Source: Geothrix paludis (lineage in GTDB: Bacteria; Acidobacteriota; Holophagae; Holophagales; Holophagaceae). From it: a DNA stretch of 64,000 bases. The DNA is taken from positions 434,001 to 498,000 of the forward strand of contig NZ_JAKZLC010000002.1 of the NCBI RefSeq assembly GCF_022808815.1, given 5' to 3'. This document shows positions 35,315 to 40,742 of this stretch, in pieces; positions within the stretch are counted from its first letter, which is position 1, and each line of letters begins with the position of its first letter. A program made the position numbers and the translations under genes. A model generated the notes under the pieces. That model saw only the letters and a program-made list of their open reading frames with translations. It was not told the origin of the DNA and did no database searches.

Positions 35315-35346
35315 GGATCCTGGCCCTGGATCCTAGCCCTGGATCC
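35315..35346. repeat. 13-bp tandem repeat at the 3' end of mqnD
   Basis: GGATCCTGGCCCT, GGATCCTAGCCCT and a partial GGATCC follow one another. The array includes the stop codon and last residues of mqnD, so slippage here would change the protein's tail. Confidence 0.7.
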
Positions 35347-36142
35347 ACACGGGTTCGAGGCCCAGCAGCTTCTCCACGGCCTCGCGGCCGCGAGGGCCGG
35401 GATCGACCGTGAAGTCGTTCACCCAGGCGTTCACGTAGCGACCGATCATCTCGCGGTCCATGCCGCGGCCGAAGGACTGGCTGTAGTCCACGCTCTCCCA
35501 GTGGCGCGCGCGGGCCATCTCCACGCTCCTGCGCATGAGCACGGCGAAGCGCTGCTTCACGTCCGCAGGCAGGTCGCGCCGGATGGCGTTGCCGCCCATG
35601 GGCAGGGGCAGATCGTAGGCGTGCTTCCACCAGGCGCCCAGATCCACCACCAGGCGCAGGCCGGCATCGTGGTACATGAGCTGGCTCTCGTGGATGAGCA
35701 GGCCCGCCTGGAAGCGGCCCTCGGCCACCGCGGGCAGGATCTGGTCGAAGGGCACCAGCTCGACCTTGGGCTCGAAGCCCAGGGATTTGCACCAGATCCG
35801 CATGGCCAGGTAGGCGCTGGTGCGCCGCCCGGGAATGGCGATGGTGAGCCCCTTCAGCCCCGCGGGCTCCAGGGGCTTCCCGCTTACCACCAGGGGCCCC
35901 GTACCCTCCTGGATGCTGGAGCCGGCCGTCAGCAGGTCGTAGCGGCCCATCAGCTCCGGGTAGGCGCCGAAGCTGATGGCCGTGACGTCGTAGCGGCTCT
36001 CCGTCGCCTCGGCGTTGAGCGTCTCGATGTCCTTGCGGACGAAGGTGATCTCGAACTCCTCCGGGTCCAGCCACCCCAGGGCCAGGGGGGCCATCATGTA
36101 GGCATCGTCGGAATCGGGGCTGTGGGCGATGGTGAACTTCAT
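35333..36142 (-). CDS. mqnD: 1,4-dihydroxy-6-naphthoate synthase (futalosine pathway)
   Basis: A 269-residue periplasmic-binding-protein-fold enzyme. The N-terminus (FTIAHSPDSDDAYMMAPLALG), KDIETLNAEA, VTAISFGAYPEL and LLIHESQL are characteristic of MqnD. It converts cyclic de-hypoxanthine futalosine to dihydroxynaphthoate in menaquinone synthesis. Its presence implies menaquinone made by the futalosine route rather than the classical Men pathway. The ATG has GGAGG at 6 nt. Other mqn genes are not in the window. Some relatives are annotated MqnA, so D is the better but not the only reading. Confidence 0.85.
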   Translation of the reverse strand: MKFTIAHSPDSDDAYMMAPLALGWLDPEEFEITFVRKDIETLNAEATESRYDVTAISFGAYPELMGRYDLLTAGSSIQEGTGPLVVSGKPLEPAGLKGLTIAIPGRRTSAYLAMRIWCKSLGFEPKVELVPFDQILPAVAEGRFQAGLLIHESQLMYHDAGLRLVVDLGAWWKHAYDLPLPMGGNAIRRDLPADVKQRFAVLMRRSVEMARARHWESVDYSQSFGRGMDREMIGRYVNAWVNDFTVDPGPRGREAVEKLLGLEPVWIQG

Positions 36143-36354
36143 GGCGGACCTCCCCTCCAGTTCAGCACAGATTCACAGAGTCCGATCCAGAACCCGGCCC
36201 AGAGGGTCACGGAACAGCCGAATCCGGAAGTGGACAAGGATGGGAACCGCATTCCCGATGCCCTAGTCTATGATGGTCCATTCCCCGCTTTGGAAACGGC
36301 TGTCTATCCCCGCCGGACTTTCGTTCCTCCGGAGCCTGCTTATGCCCGGACCCC

Positions 36355-38181
36355 ATGATCAGACGTCTCCTTACCTTCCTCCTCGCCTTCAGCACCATGA
36401 CGGTCGCCTCCGGCGCGGATGGTCCGGACCTTTCCTATTCGAAGACGATCCACTACCAAATCAAGGGGGGGCCAGCGGGCTACCGTCTGAGCTCAGAAAC
36501 CACGGTCCAGCGGACGGCGCTGACGGAACGGGCCGCCCGAGCTCATGCCTTTGATGTGGTGGAGCAGCCTTTCACCACCATCAGCGGGCTCAGGGGGGAA
36601 AGCCGGGGACGTGATCTGAAGCAGGACCGTATCACCTTCCATTTCCCGCGGCTCGAAGATACGTTCATCCCCCCGGCCCGGGTGCATGAGCTCGAGTTCC
36701 CGGCCGATCTCAAGATCGGCGACACGATCACCTACTCCTGGCATGAGGACTACAAAGACCTGGCGTTTCTTCCGATCGCGAGTATCCCGGCGATCGACCA
36801 GGTGGTCCGATTCGAGATCAGGATCGACCATCCTGCGGATCTCCAGATCACCTTCACGCCTTTCTTCCCGCACGGCGATCTTCCCTTCAAGGAGGACCGT
36901 AGCGCTCCCACCCGGACCGTCCTCGTATTCCAGAACCTTCCCCGGATCGGCCTGTTCCCCTGCGACCCCTATCAGGGCCTACAGGCGGCCGTGCTGTTGG
37001 GCGTCCGCAGGGGGGCCGCGCCCCTCACCCCGGGAACGCCGGACGCCTTCTCGACCTGGTACCTGGGGCTCCTCCGCGACATGCCCAAGCCCAGCGAGGC
37101 CATGAACCAGTTGCTGGCCGAGGAACTCCGCCGGGCCGCGTCCCCCCGGGAGAAGGCCCGGATCCTGTTCGACTACGTGAAATCCGAGATCCGGTACATC
37201 GCGGACGAAGGCGCCATGCACGCCTTCGTCCCCCACGACCCGGCCTCAGTGCTGGAGAAGAAATACGGAGACTGCAAGGACAAGGCCTGGCTCCTGACGG
37301 CCCTGGGCCGGATCCATGGCCTATCCATCCATCCCGTCCTGCTATCCACGGTCCCCTCACCGGATTTCCCGGAGCTGGCCCCCGGGCTCTTCAATCACGT
37401 GATCTGCGCCCTGGAGGAGCAGGGTCAGCTGACCTTCATGGACCCCACGGCCACCTACAGCGAGATGGGGGACCTTCCAGATCCCGACCTCCTGGTGAAA
37501 GCGCTGGTGCTGGACCCCGCCCGGCCACGCATGGTCACCATCCCCTCGCAGCAGCAGTCTGAGGGGGTCGAGATCCAGATCGAAGGCGATCTGGCGAAGC
37601 CCCGCGAGGCCAAGGCCAGGATCACCCTCCGCCACAGTTGGAGGACCCAGGCCATCCGGTCCCGCAGGGACCTGAAATCCATGGACCTGGAAAACACGCT
37701 CTCCAACCGCCTGAACCGGCTGCTGGCCAAGCTATCGCTGGACGGTTTCCGGTTCAAGGACGTGGACCGCGAGAAGGTCGTCCTCGAAGCAAATGCGGAC
37801 CTGACGGATTTCTTCATCCGCACCGACCTTCGTGTCTATGCCCCATCCGCGCCCTTCCGCGCCATCTCGCCGGATTACTTGGAGCGGGAGGGGGACACTC
37901 ACCCACTGGATACCCAAGGACCCGACGCCTATCGCCTCGAGCTTGACCTGAAGTCGGACAGCCTACGCCCGCGGCCGGACCGCCTTTCGCTGGGCCGCAC
38001 GGGTGCGGCGAACCACACCGCCACCTGTTCCGGAAAGGCCGGGAATATCCGTCTCTCCTACACCTTCAGGCAGCCCTTCCGGCTGTTGCCCAAGGGAGCC
38101 AGGGCGGAATTCATGGCGTTCTGCACACAGTACCTCCAGCTGAACCGAAGGCTCTTCGTCCTCCAAAGGAGCGAATCGTGA
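36355..38181 (+). CDS. Exported DUF3857/transglutaminase-like protein
   Basis: A 608-residue exported protein. A signal peptide (MIRRLLTFLLAFSTMTVASG) precedes a DUF3857 beta domain (about 60-240) and a transglutaminase-like domain. The Cys is in KKYGDCKDKAWLL (near 305), the His in FNHVICAL and the Asp in TFMDPTA, so the catalytic triad is complete. A beta-rich C-terminal domain follows. Related proteins are probably envelope peptidases or crosslinkers, and the substrate is unknown. The stop overlaps the next gene's GTG start. The ribosome site before the ATG is weak. The 212-bp upstream gap shows no obvious promoter. Confidence 0.85.
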   Translation: MIRRLLTFLLAFSTMTVASGADGPDLSYSKTIHYQIKGGPAGYRLSSETTVQRTALTERAARAHAFDVVEQPFTTISGLRGESRGRDLKQDRITFHFPRLEDTFIPPARVHELEFPADLKIGDTITYSWHEDYKDLAFLPIASIPAIDQVVRFEIRIDHPADLQITFTPFFPHGDLPFKEDRSAPTRTVLVFQNLPRIGLFPCDPYQGLQAAVLLGVRRGAAPLTPGTPDAFSTWYLGLLRDMPKPSEAMNQLLAEELRRAASPREKARILFDYVKSEIRYIADEGAMHAFVPHDPASVLEKKYGDCKDKAWLLTALGRIHGLSIHPVLLSTVPSPDFPELAPGLFNHVICALEEQGQLTFMDPTATYSEMGDLPDPDLLVKALVLDPARPRMVTIPSQQQSEGVEIQIEGDLAKPREAKARITLRHSWRTQAIRSRRDLKSMDLENTLSNRLNRLLAKLSLDGFRFKDVDREKVVLEANADLTDFFIRTDLRVYAPSAPFRAISPDYLEREGDTHPLDTQGPDAYRLELDLKSDSLRPRPDRLSLGRTGAANHTATCSGKAGNIRLSYTFRQPFRLLPKGARAEFMAFCTQYLQLNRRLFVLQRSES

Positions 38182-40148
38182 AATCCGCCCTCGTCCTCGT
38201 CGCCGCGCTCGCCCTGTTGGCTGTCGGCTGCCAGACCTCCGAACGCCTCATCACGTTCCCCTCCCAGACCGCCGCCGATGTCAAAGCACCACTCGATGTC
38301 CCAGCCCTCGAGAAGCGCTTCCCCGGGCAGGACGGTGTCTACCTTCAACGCGACACGTCCTTCGAACATGTCACCAGTGACGGGTGGCCAGGCGGCATCA
38401 CCTGGACGTTCTTCGAGACCCAGACCCGCAGCTACGTCGTATTCAACCCCGATGCGAAATGGCTCTCCACGTTTGAAGTCCAGGTATCTCCCGGTTCCGA
38501 GCTGGAACGGGTGGCCCTGGAGATCCGCGGAACGGACGGGAAGGCCCGCCAGTTCGGCGTGGGAGACCTCAAGCAGGAGAAGGACTCCAAGGGCCTCGTG
38601 ACCTACAAGCTGGCCTACCCGGACGTCCGGAAGGGCTGCGTCATCACCGAGGCCTACGTCATCAAGAAGGCGAACTGCTGGGCCGCCCCTCCGCTCCATC
38701 ACGAGGTTCCGCTGCAATTCTCGATCCCCTGCCTTCAGGCGAGCTACCGGTTCCTCTATCCCAACTGGTGGGCGACCAAGGTGAAGGCCCTAGGCCCGGG
38801 CCGGACGCTGCCCGTGGAGGTGAAGAAGGATGAGCAGGCGAAAAAGACCATCATGACCTACACCGCCAAGGACATCCCGGCCGTCGAGAAGGAGCCTTTC
38901 TCCCCCTTCTTCAAGGAGGTCTCCAATTACGCGGAGATCATGGTCGTCCAGCTGAGTCTCGGCAAAGCCTATTACGCAGCCCCTTTGACCTGGGAGGCCT
39001 ACGCCAAAGAGTTCAAAGGCTACGTCATGGACAAGAACCCCATCTTCTCGCAGCGGGTGGACCGCACCACCCTCGAGGCCACCCAATCCTGCAAGACGGA
39101 CCGCGAGCGTCTCGAGGCCCTGGTGGGCTGGATCCAGGCCAACATGGAAATCGGCGCCACCAAAGGAAATTTCGCGGATGTGCTGGCCGCCAAGAGGGGC
39201 TCGGTCTACCAGCTCACGGGGCTGGCGCAGAGCATGCTTCGGAAGGCAGGGATCAACAGCCGCTTCCTGCTCATCCACTCCGCGGAAGACGGTTACTTCG
39301 ACAAGGATTTCATCTCCAGTGAAGAGCTCTACATCCCGGCCCTGATGGCCGATCTCGGCGGCCGGTCCTACGTGGTGCTCCCCTACGCCAAGAACCTCCC
39401 CGTGGACATCATCCCCGAGCGGTTCCAGGGGCAGACAGCCCTTGCCATCGAGCCATCCGGCGCGGCCCAGCTCATCACGGTCCCCACCGGCAACCTGGCC
39501 ACCAACGAAGTGTCCGAAGACTACTCGCTCACCTTCTCCGAAGACGGCAAAGTCCGGGTCACCGAAGAGAAGACCTTCCAGGGGTCCAACGCCTACAGCG
39601 TGCGGCGGAGCCTTGCCGACCTGAACCGGGAGGAGACCGAGAAGCTGCTGAAGGGCCTGCTGACCTACACCGAAGGCAAGGTCGAGTTCACGAAGTATGA
39701 ATTCGTGGACCAAAGCGACTACAAGAAACCGCTGAAGGTGCACCTGGAATATGTCATCGACAACCTGGTCACCCTCACCCCAGAGGAGGTCCTCTTCAAT
39801 ACGGGCGGCCTCTTCGCCCCTGCCTCACGGCTGAAGACCAAGGTGGCCCCCAAGGATCGCCAGAACCCGGTCCGCATCTACTACGATGAGGCCTCCAGGA
39901 AGAACATCGTCCTGACCTTCCCCGCCTCCTGGAGGCTCTCCCGTGTCCCCCAGGACTTCCGGTTGGAGAACCGTTTCGGATCGATCAGCGGCTCCTACAA
40001 GAGCAGCTCGCGGAAACTCCAGGTCCAACAAGCCCTGACGCTGAAGAAGAGCTTCGAGTCCAAGGAGCGGATCGAGGAACTCCTGGAACTGACCGGGAAT
40101 CATTCCAAGCTCTATGTCCCCACCCTGGTGTTCAAAGTGAAGGGGTGA
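38178..40148 (+). CDS. DUF3857/transglutaminase-like lipoprotein, probably inactive
   Basis: A 656-residue lipoprotein whose signal peptide ends in the lipobox LAVGC. Its layout parallels the preceding gene, with a DUF3857-type half followed by a transglutaminase-fold half. However, the region where YGDCKDKA should be reads AKRGSVYQLTGLAQSMLRKAGI, so the catalytic cysteine is missing. The start GTG overlaps the upstream stop as GTGA and is preceded by AAAGGAG at 6 nt, so the two are translated together. It may be a membrane-bound partner of its active neighbour. Confidence 0.82.
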   Translation: MKSALVLVAALALLAVGCQTSERLITFPSQTAADVKAPLDVPALEKRFPGQDGVYLQRDTSFEHVTSDGWPGGITWTFFETQTRSYVVFNPDAKWLSTFEVQVSPGSELERVALEIRGTDGKARQFGVGDLKQEKDSKGLVTYKLAYPDVRKGCVITEAYVIKKANCWAAPPLHHEVPLQFSIPCLQASYRFLYPNWWATKVKALGPGRTLPVEVKKDEQAKKTIMTYTAKDIPAVEKEPFSPFFKEVSNYAEIMVVQLSLGKAYYAAPLTWEAYAKEFKGYVMDKNPIFSQRVDRTTLEATQSCKTDRERLEALVGWIQANMEIGATKGNFADVLAAKRGSVYQLTGLAQSMLRKAGINSRFLLIHSAEDGYFDKDFISSEELYIPALMADLGGRSYVVLPYAKNLPVDIIPERFQGQTALAIEPSGAAQLITVPTGNLATNEVSEDYSLTFSEDGKVRVTEEKTFQGSNAYSVRRSLADLNREETEKLLKGLLTYTEGKVEFTKYEFVDQSDYKKPLKVHLEYVIDNLVTLTPEEVLFNTGGLFAPASRLKTKVAPKDRQNPVRIYYDEASRKNIVLTFPASWRLSRVPQDFRLENRFGSISGSYKSSSRKLQVQQALTLKKSFESKERIEELLELTGNHSKLYVPTLVFKVKG

Positions 40149-40220
40149 GTCACCGGACGGCCAACCAGCCGCCCAGTTCCGCTCCGCGGCCTGGGCGTGT
40201 TCGCCGGACGTCATCACCCC

Positions 40221-40742
40221 TCAGCCGATGGTCTCCGGATCCTTCGGCGCCAGTTTGCCCTTGACGCGCTCCACGGCCTTGGCGGCCAGGGTGTAGCGGG
40301 GGTTCTCCTCCAGGGCCTTCCGGTAGTGCTCCAGGGCCTTGTCCAGCTGGCCCTTGGCCTCGTACACGCGGCCCAGGTTGAAGTGGGGGAAGCAGTAGCT
40401 CTCGTAGCGCTTGGCCTTCAGGGCCATGCGCAGCCAGGGGATGGCCTCGTCGGGCTCCCCCTGCTCCACGTAGTAGGCGCCGATGTCGTTGTAGGGGTTC
40501 CCGAACTCGGGGTCCAGGTCGATGGCCCGGTGGCAGTCCTCGATGGCCGAGGCGTAGTCCTTCTCGAAGGACCGCGTCCAGCCCCGGAAGGTGTAGGCCT
40601 CGGCCGTGGGACAGATCTCGATGGACTTGGTGTAGAGGGCGAGGGCCTTCTGGATCTCCCCCTTCATCTGGAGCTGGTAGGCCTTGCCCACCCACTCCAT
40701 GGCCTCCTGCCGCTTGTCCTGGCGTTCCTGCTCGTCGCTCAT
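40221..40742 (-). CDS. TPR protein, 173 residues
   Basis: A small soluble protein made of about four TPR units (residues 15-150): GKAYQLQMKGEIQKALALYTK, AYTFRGWTRSFEKDYASAIED, AYYVEQGEPDEAIPWLRMA and NLGRVYEAKGQLDKALEHY. TPR proteins act as protein-protein adaptors. There is no signal peptide. It is divergent from another TPR gene across 63 bp, suggesting a functional link, but the partner is unknown. Confidence 0.85.
   Translation of the reverse strand: MSDEQERQDKRQEAMEWVGKAYQLQMKGEIQKALALYTKSIEICPTAEAYTFRGWTRSFEKDYASAIEDCHRAIDLDPEFGNPYNDIGAYYVEQGEPDEAIPWLRMALKAKRYESYCFPHFNLGRVYEAKGQLDKALEHYRKALEENPRYTLAAKAVERVKGKLAPKDPETIG

Follow-up and report, generated by a model that had tools for sequence, protein, structure and literature searches.

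Why would a bacterium make an enzyme side by side with a second protein of the same fold that has lost its catalytic residues? The question is raised by two adjacent open reading frames, ORF1 and ORF2, in a 64,000-nucleotide stretch of Geothrix paludis DNA (contig NZ_JAKZLC010000002.1, positions 434,001 to 498,000; this whole stretch is called the window below). ORF1 reads as a live, and ORF2 as a dead, member of the transglutaminase-like superfamily. The first-pass annotation took them for an enzyme and a membrane-anchored pseudoenzyme partner that together would make a new envelope system. On comparative sequence grounds a functional partnership of the live and dead proteins is well supported, because the genes are linked, the trees of the partners mirror one another and the two genes move as one cassette; such pairing also proves to be widespread and extends beyond this genome. 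The reading that we prefer, to which we give a probability of about 0.55, is that the two genes form one functional unit, an exported enzyme plus a membrane-anchored dead twin that holds the enzyme or its substrate.

The two proteins and their fold

ORF1 has the complete Cys-His-Asp set that had been read in it, Cys307 in YGDCKDKA, His348 in FNHV and Asp363 in MDPT, and in a 41-row alignment of live relatives all three columns are invariant. By this set ORF1 would be an active-type member of the superfamily. The cysteine loss ascribed to ORF2 is real, and was understated: KRGSVYQLTG stands at the place of the Cys, and the catalytic His and Asp have gone too. Because it fails at all three positions, ORF2 appears to be a pseudoenzyme of the same superfamily. 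Across the ORF2 orthologues the former Cys position reads V, V, P, P and M.

Do the two proteins share one fold? The Pfam model Transglut_core matches both above its curated cut-off of 23 bits (ORF1, 33 bits, residues 254-324; ORF2, 26.1 bits, residues 299-364). DUF3857 and DUF3858 match ORF2 below their cut-offs (22.2 against 24.6, and 20.8 against 27), and ORF1 has no Pfam line for either at E up to 10; at E up to 0.001, DUF3857 is matched by 40 of the 41 rows of alignment A4 and 21 of the 23 rows of A5. Neither protein matched NCBIfam, and single-sequence searches of the PDB with each gave nothing useful. The AlphaFold2 models (predicted local distance difference test scores of 88.6 for ORF1 and 84.8 for ORF2) have the same top Foldseek match, 3KD4, far ahead of the rest (E 4.7e-23 and 1.6e-30, respectively). 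Each aligns with it over nearly its full length, ORF1 with Z 24.3 over 479 residues at a root-mean-square deviation (rmsd) of 5.2 A, and ORF2 with Z 19.0 over 482 residues at 5.6 A. As modelled, then, both proteins have the whole-chain 3KD4 fold, the DUF3857-DUF3858 architecture; the similar layout originally proposed for them holds, and the unrelated folds that would have spoken against a partnership were not found. The ORF2 model has one N-terminal helix (residues 2-17), is otherwise mostly strands, and looks soluble.

The match to 3KD4 (BDI_1141 of Parabacteroides distasonis), the sole solved structure of the family detectable by sequence, extends to a three-part layout common to all three proteins, at a sequence identity of merely 12-15%. 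In a sequence alignment 3KD4 reads YGTPLE where live members have YGDCKD. Because the catalytic Cys is thus missing, 3KD4 would itself be of the dead kind, despite its label of 'putative protease'.

The N-terminus of ORF2, VKSALVLVAALALLAVGC, has a lipobox-like end with Cys18, and a short hydrophobic stretch followed by a lipobox with terminal Cys was recognized, by eye or by a simple pattern, in all six ORF2 orthologues, though that of G050, FLQC, is atypical. ORF2 is probably anchored in the membrane through a lipid on Cys18. The description of ORF2 as a lipoprotein thus fits its own orthologues, as judged from sequence patterns; the lipobox seems to be a trait of the window's subfamily and not of the wider pairs. 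Lipid anchoring as a general rule for dead partners was considered and rejected, a crude pattern finding it in just 11 of the 109 dead genes surveyed below, the window's type included. The reported 4-bp overlap of the two genes is confirmed as a shared GTGA.

Table. Features of the gene pair, in window coordinates; domain limits, in residues, are taken from model alignments.
Feature	Position	Strand	Remarks
Two-gene cassette	36147..40216		DNA missing at the matching site of G006; genome alignment
ORF1, live partner	36355..38181	+	608 aa, ATG start
ORF1 regions			signal-peptide-like N-terminus; N-terminal beta domain 24-222; transglutaminase-like core 226-399; C-terminal part 400-608
Codon of Cys307 (YGDCKDKA)	37273..37275	+	invariant column
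Codon of His348 (FNHV)	37396..37398	+	invariant column
Codon of Asp363 (MDPT)	37441..37443	+	invariant column
AAAGGAG, ribosome-binding-site-like	38165..38171	+	inside ORF1, 6 nt ahead of the ORF2 GTG; by eye
GTGA, ORF1 stop / ORF2 start	38178..38181	+	4-bp overlap
ORF2, dead partner	38178..40148	+	656 aa, GTG start
ORF2 regions			lipobox; N-terminal beta domain 48-263; dead transglutaminase-like core 268-438; C-terminal part 439-656
Codon of Cys18	38229..38231	+	presumed lipidated; C18 invariant in ORF2 alignment
Codon of Val343	39204..39206	+	at former catalytic Cys position
IHSAEDGYFDKDFIS loop	39273..39317	+	ORF2 residues 366-380, dead core

Linkage, selection and movement of the pair

Are the two genes kept together in relatives? 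Besides the window's, orthologous pairs were found in two genomes of the same genus (G018 and G013), in two of the same class and another family (G050 and G038) and on an Ignavibacteriaceae contig (L050). Live and dead genes are adjacent in all six, so that the unlinked genes foreseen as a refutation of the partnership did not appear. A profile search found a full-length ORF2 in five of 93 genomes of the class, three of them from the genus.

Is ORF2 simply a decaying duplicate, retained by chance after all three catalytic residues had gone? Identity to the window's proteins is 96, 76, 37 and 33% for ORF2 and 93, 67, 29 and 26% for ORF1; of the two, ORF2 appears to be the better conserved among the orthologues. 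In the deep comparison the dead core, at a mean identity of 36%, is the most conserved part of ORF2, and the live core of ORF1 stands at 33%. The ratio of nonsynonymous to synonymous substitution rates (dN/dS) between the window genome (G000) and G018 is 0.107 for ORF2 and 0.126 for ORF1; between G000 and G013 it is 0.217 and 0.271. ORF2 is under purifying selection, its dN/dS values lie below those of ORF1, and its frame is open. As the dead copies of the 51 pairs discussed below also form large, old groups, decay is scarcely credible, and we regard it as in substance refuted by selection and by the depth of the dead groups.

The genomic site shows the pair to be mobile as a unit. Alignment with the relative G006 ends at window position 36146 and resumes at 40217, 30 bp apart, the window having a surplus of 4.07 kb. 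The pair is flanked by a menaquinone-biosynthesis-type gene (35333-36142) and a tetratricopeptide repeat (TPR) gene (40221-40742); their counterparts in G006, 93.9% and 97.8% identical, lie side by side. Ten relatives lack the pair at this site. The flanks are joined in five (G006, G010, G067, G032 and G070), and other DNA, roughly 0.4 to 3 kb, lies between them in G007, G015, G025, G013 and G001, the pair of G013 being on a different contig. Therefore the two genes come and go jointly; they have been gained or lost within the genus as one block of about 4 kb, gain and loss being indistinguishable. Between the menaquinone-type and TPR genes (window 36143-40220) the relatives carry differing DNA, from 0 to about 4 kb, and the site is an insertion hot spot.

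Movement as a cassette into a site otherwise holding other DNA or none might suggest a mobile enzyme-inhibitor module, in which the dead twin would restrain the enzyme, much as an immunity protein does or as an inhibitor built into the system; competition by a paralogue of related surface is conceivable. We think this improbable. Among the PADLOC defense models ORF2 has no match and ORF1 just a weak AbiEi line (E 0.046). No relatives of ORF2 were matched on viral contigs or plasmids. Matches to ORF1 were found in 17 plasmid records, each spanning less than 80% of the protein, and the two plasmid regions inspected have, respectively, a solo DUF3857 gene and no annotation.

A pattern scan found no promoter-like or terminator patterns, though such scans miss some promoter types. 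A GATGCCCTAGT...ATG stretch 5' of ORF1 (window 36261-36282) recurs 5' of the G013 copy, at its other locus, and is perhaps a promoter element. A small ORF directly 5' of ORF1, with an ATGA overlap, was considered as part of the cassette and rejected; it is present in G018 and not in G013.

Live-dead pairs in other bacteria

How far does the pairing extend? The genome survey that had been suggested at first pass shows it to be widespread. In one set, 80 named loci (the best 80 of 586 confirmed stretches, picked by live motif), a dead DUF3857-transglutaminase gene neighbors the live gene in 38, with the order live-then-dead in 35, dead-then-live in two and divergent in one. By NCBI lineage these 38 belong to Bacteroidota (18), Myxococcota (8), Planctomycetota (6), Acidobacteriota (2), Ignavibacteriota (1) and Zixiibacteriota (1), with one on an Aminicenantes contig and one on an unnamed contig. 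The second set consists of 67 Acidobacteriota regions, the best place in each matching genome (54 of 119) and 14 further, with the window excluded; the dead profile that matched these genomes also catches live genes. Members are present in 66 of the 67 regions, 71 dead and 64 live. In these mainly dead-partner-picked regions, 64 of the 71 dead genes cluster with a live gene, 57 directly beside it (gap < 600 bp) and seven as members of an array that includes one. Of the seven dead genes left over, those of L210 and L218 and three in L246 reach contig ends; the last two are in L197 and L244.

The dead state was scored from an automatic alignment, with gaps at the Cys position treated as losses and with less certainty at the His and Asp positions of dead copies; so scored, the 109 dead genes of both sets have lost all three residues in 57 cases, two in 44 and one in eight. 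The pattern G[DVIAEN]C[KR] is absent from all 109. In L194, L193 and L064 the dead copies retain His and Asp and depart from the catalytic set by a single Cys-to-Asn change; the live and dead genes of L064 and L193 have divergent orientations.

The arrangement of the genes is variable. A 4-bp overlap is present in 26 of 96 neighboring live-dead pairs. Single live genes are accompanied by two or three dead copies in clusters L194, L195, L196, L219 and L240, and in L196 (G177) and L219 (G150) the three dead copies are in tandem. Three consecutive pairs make up L250, and L090 has three live copies. Among the ORFs scanned no live-dead fusion in one chain was found; in four ORFs with two model matches above 30 bits, the second was a C-terminal partial match only. 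The window genome has a second, distant pair (L160, 6257-10209 of G000:C1, minus strand), with the dead gene first and a 4-bp overlap, and G001 has a pair of the same type (L161). In long-type pairs (L104, 775-8189, and similar) both proteins are about 1240 aa long, and TPR repeats at the N-terminus precede the DUF3857-transglutaminase part. In seven Bacteroidota pairs (L056, L059, L069, L076, L095, L097 and L114) the live gene starts where the gene for a repeat protein ends, with a 4-bp overlap in L114. This protein is about 1100 aa long, and its repeats look TPR-like and MORN-like by eye; a three-gene operon of repeat protein, live gene and dead gene is possible there.

What evolutionary steps account for these pairs? 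After removal of duplicates and fragments (193 proteins reduced to 170, and L077 dropped from the pair tree), the live/dead label changes four times on the 170-protein tree, against 48 in shuffles. On that tree a Holophagaceae contig (L117) joins a genome of the window's family with full support, in keeping with the window's own placement in Holophagaceae. On a tree of 51 pairs built with the catalytic columns removed it changes three times, against 34.3 in shuffles, and the starred branches force three. There are three dead groups: a large short type that includes the window's, the long type (about 1240 aa, with TPR), and a small group, the live members of which (L221, L231 and L237) read GVCR or GVCK. 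A single origin for all dead copies was rejected by the approximately unbiased test (p 0.008), with the caveat of long branches.

The distances among live partners follow those among dead partners, with r 0.785 for the 51 pairs, 0.888 for 35 short ones and 0.826 for 13 long ones, values that none of 2000 permutations reached. For the six window-type pairs r is 0.969, and 13 of 2000 permutations were as high. The nearest neighbor is identical in both partner trees for 41 of the 51 pairs. The partners are thus co-inherited, though contact is not proven by mirrored trees.

Possible roles of the dead twin

What might the unit do? We propose that ORF1 is exported and works in the envelope as a thiol enzyme with the transglutaminase-like fold, either hydrolyzing or transferring an amide bond in proteins or peptides. 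ORF2 would be translated from the message that also encodes ORF1, by translational coupling, and be lipidated at Cys18; its dead core, which is conserved, and the beta domains that flank this core would hold ORF1, or the substrate of ORF1, at the membrane. The action of the enzyme would thereby be confined to where the twin sits. Export, lipidation, physical contact in a complex, activity and substrate are all points that we infer.

After 3KD4, the solved structures nearest to the ORF1 core are LapG (Z 11.3), TglA (11.0) and peptide N-glycanase (PNGase; 10.3), which are tied and accompanied by transglutaminase 2 rows. The ORF2 core is closest to Rad4/XPC (Z 11.7, 148 residues, rmsd 3.3 A), with PNGase at 10.4. 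Because the nearest cores include LapG, though tied with others, a protease or amidase is slightly favored over a cross-linking enzyme for ORF1, as modelled. With the live core near LapG, TglA and PNGase and the dead core near Rad4/XPC, thiol hydrolase for ORF1 and scaffold for ORF2 would be the most natural pair of roles, though likeness of fold shows no function. LapG (4fgp, 4u65), a periplasmic cysteine protease, aligns with the ORF1 core over 136 residues at rmsd 3.7 A; unlike ORF1 it has no flanking DUF3857-like domains. As ORF1 does not match the LapG family model in Pfam, its sole lines at E up to 10 being Transglut_core and one chance match, the likeness seems to be one of fold only. 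A membrane protein, LapD, holds LapG as its partner in the periplasm, but is not known to be a dead paralogue of this protease.

Need the dead twin touch the enzyme at all? In the IHSAEDGYFDKDFIS loop of the dead core, by the old active site, I366, H367, G372, F374, D375 and S380 are invariant in the five ORF2 orthologues compared, while the former Cys position varies, as one would expect of a binding site. ORF2 might then be a separate lipid-anchored receptor of the same pathway, binding substrate or product with no contact to the enzyme; the available part of PMC3482391 proposes just such a peptide-binding anchor role for the inactive transglutaminase domains of polymorphic toxins. We take this alternative seriously, although we judge it unlikely, the 4-bp overlaps and the arrays of several dead genes, as in L196 and L219, suiting a shared assembly at least equally well. 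Could the loop instead be a new catalytic site, in which H367, D375 and S380, all invariant and all within the loop that follows the former Cys helix, carry out a changed chemistry? With residues this close in one loop the function may merely be to bind a metal or some other ligand, a comparison of five sequences is small, and we know of no solved enzyme of the transglutaminase-like fold with such an H-D-S set; this explanation seems to us very unlikely.

Several observations weigh against a single functional unit of enzyme and dead twin. Only three of the 47 genomes of the window's genus hold this type of pair. No dead neighbor is present in 42 of the 80 named live loci, some of them truncated by contig ends and including five from Pseudomonadota and four from Gemmatimonadota; the wider live family therefore needs no dead partner. 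Live genes that stand alone also count against the inhibitor explanation raised above. The dead gene of L244 (G088) is an orphan in a 13-kb region, the nearest 5 kb or so being free of live genes, and the dead gene of L197 is 966 bp from its live gene. No third gene is common to the 94 paired loci, the commonest neighbor occurring in seven, and no substrate or phenotype pointing to a function was found for them. The scan ahead of ORF1 gave no promoter-like site, and mirrored trees are also expected from plain co-inheritance.

Dead transglutaminase domains as such are already known in bacteria, in toxins (PMC3482391) and in a membrane protein linked to vesiculation (PMC12096838), as far as the available parts of these papers describe them. 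In the polymorphic toxins a transglutaminase domain that has lost C, H or D stands beside a signal peptide, fused to RHS repeats and a toxin domain (PMC3482391, in part); ORF2 has neither in Pfam and, unlike those fused domains, would be a separate gene product paired with a live copy. The envelope protein is an integral membrane protein with an inactive transglutaminase domain and seven transmembrane helices, the disruption of which raises vesicle production, whereas the ORF2 model has a single N-terminal helix and is otherwise beta-rich; the accessible portion of PMC12096838 describes no live paired copy. Rad4/XPC, EPB42 and menin retain dead papain-like or transglutaminase-like cores as scaffolds of complexes, the Rad4 domain being inactive (PMC10318531, in part); unlike ORF2, these are eukaryotic, intracellular proteins with no adjacent gene for a live paralogue. 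The portion available of a vasohibin paper cites 3KD4 as a homologue. Such parts of the open-licence PubMed Central literature as were available give DUF3857 a passing mention only, and no description of a conserved live-dead DUF3857 pairing was found in that literature, which does not prove its absence.

We tentatively extend the argument, at somewhat less than even odds, to the exported live-dead DUF3857-transglutaminase pairs in general. These may be an undescribed two-part envelope enzyme of at least six phyla, with about three origins by tandem duplication and loss of catalysis (a short type, a long TPR-bearing type, and a GVC(R/K) or GIC type), in which the dead subunit would be obligatory for anchoring and for substrate choice. 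If so, the clusters of one live and several dead genes would be one enzyme served by several adaptors.

The retention of an enzyme beside a dead copy of itself is known in eukaryotes. The pairs described here show it in several bacterial phyla, in a family with no assigned function and seemingly with more than one origin. The name 'transglutaminase domain-containing protein' would be misleading for half of each pair, as 'putative protease' would be for 3KD4, likewise of the dead kind. The pairs offer a natural series for asking why dead partners evolve repeatedly, whether as adaptor, activator or brake.

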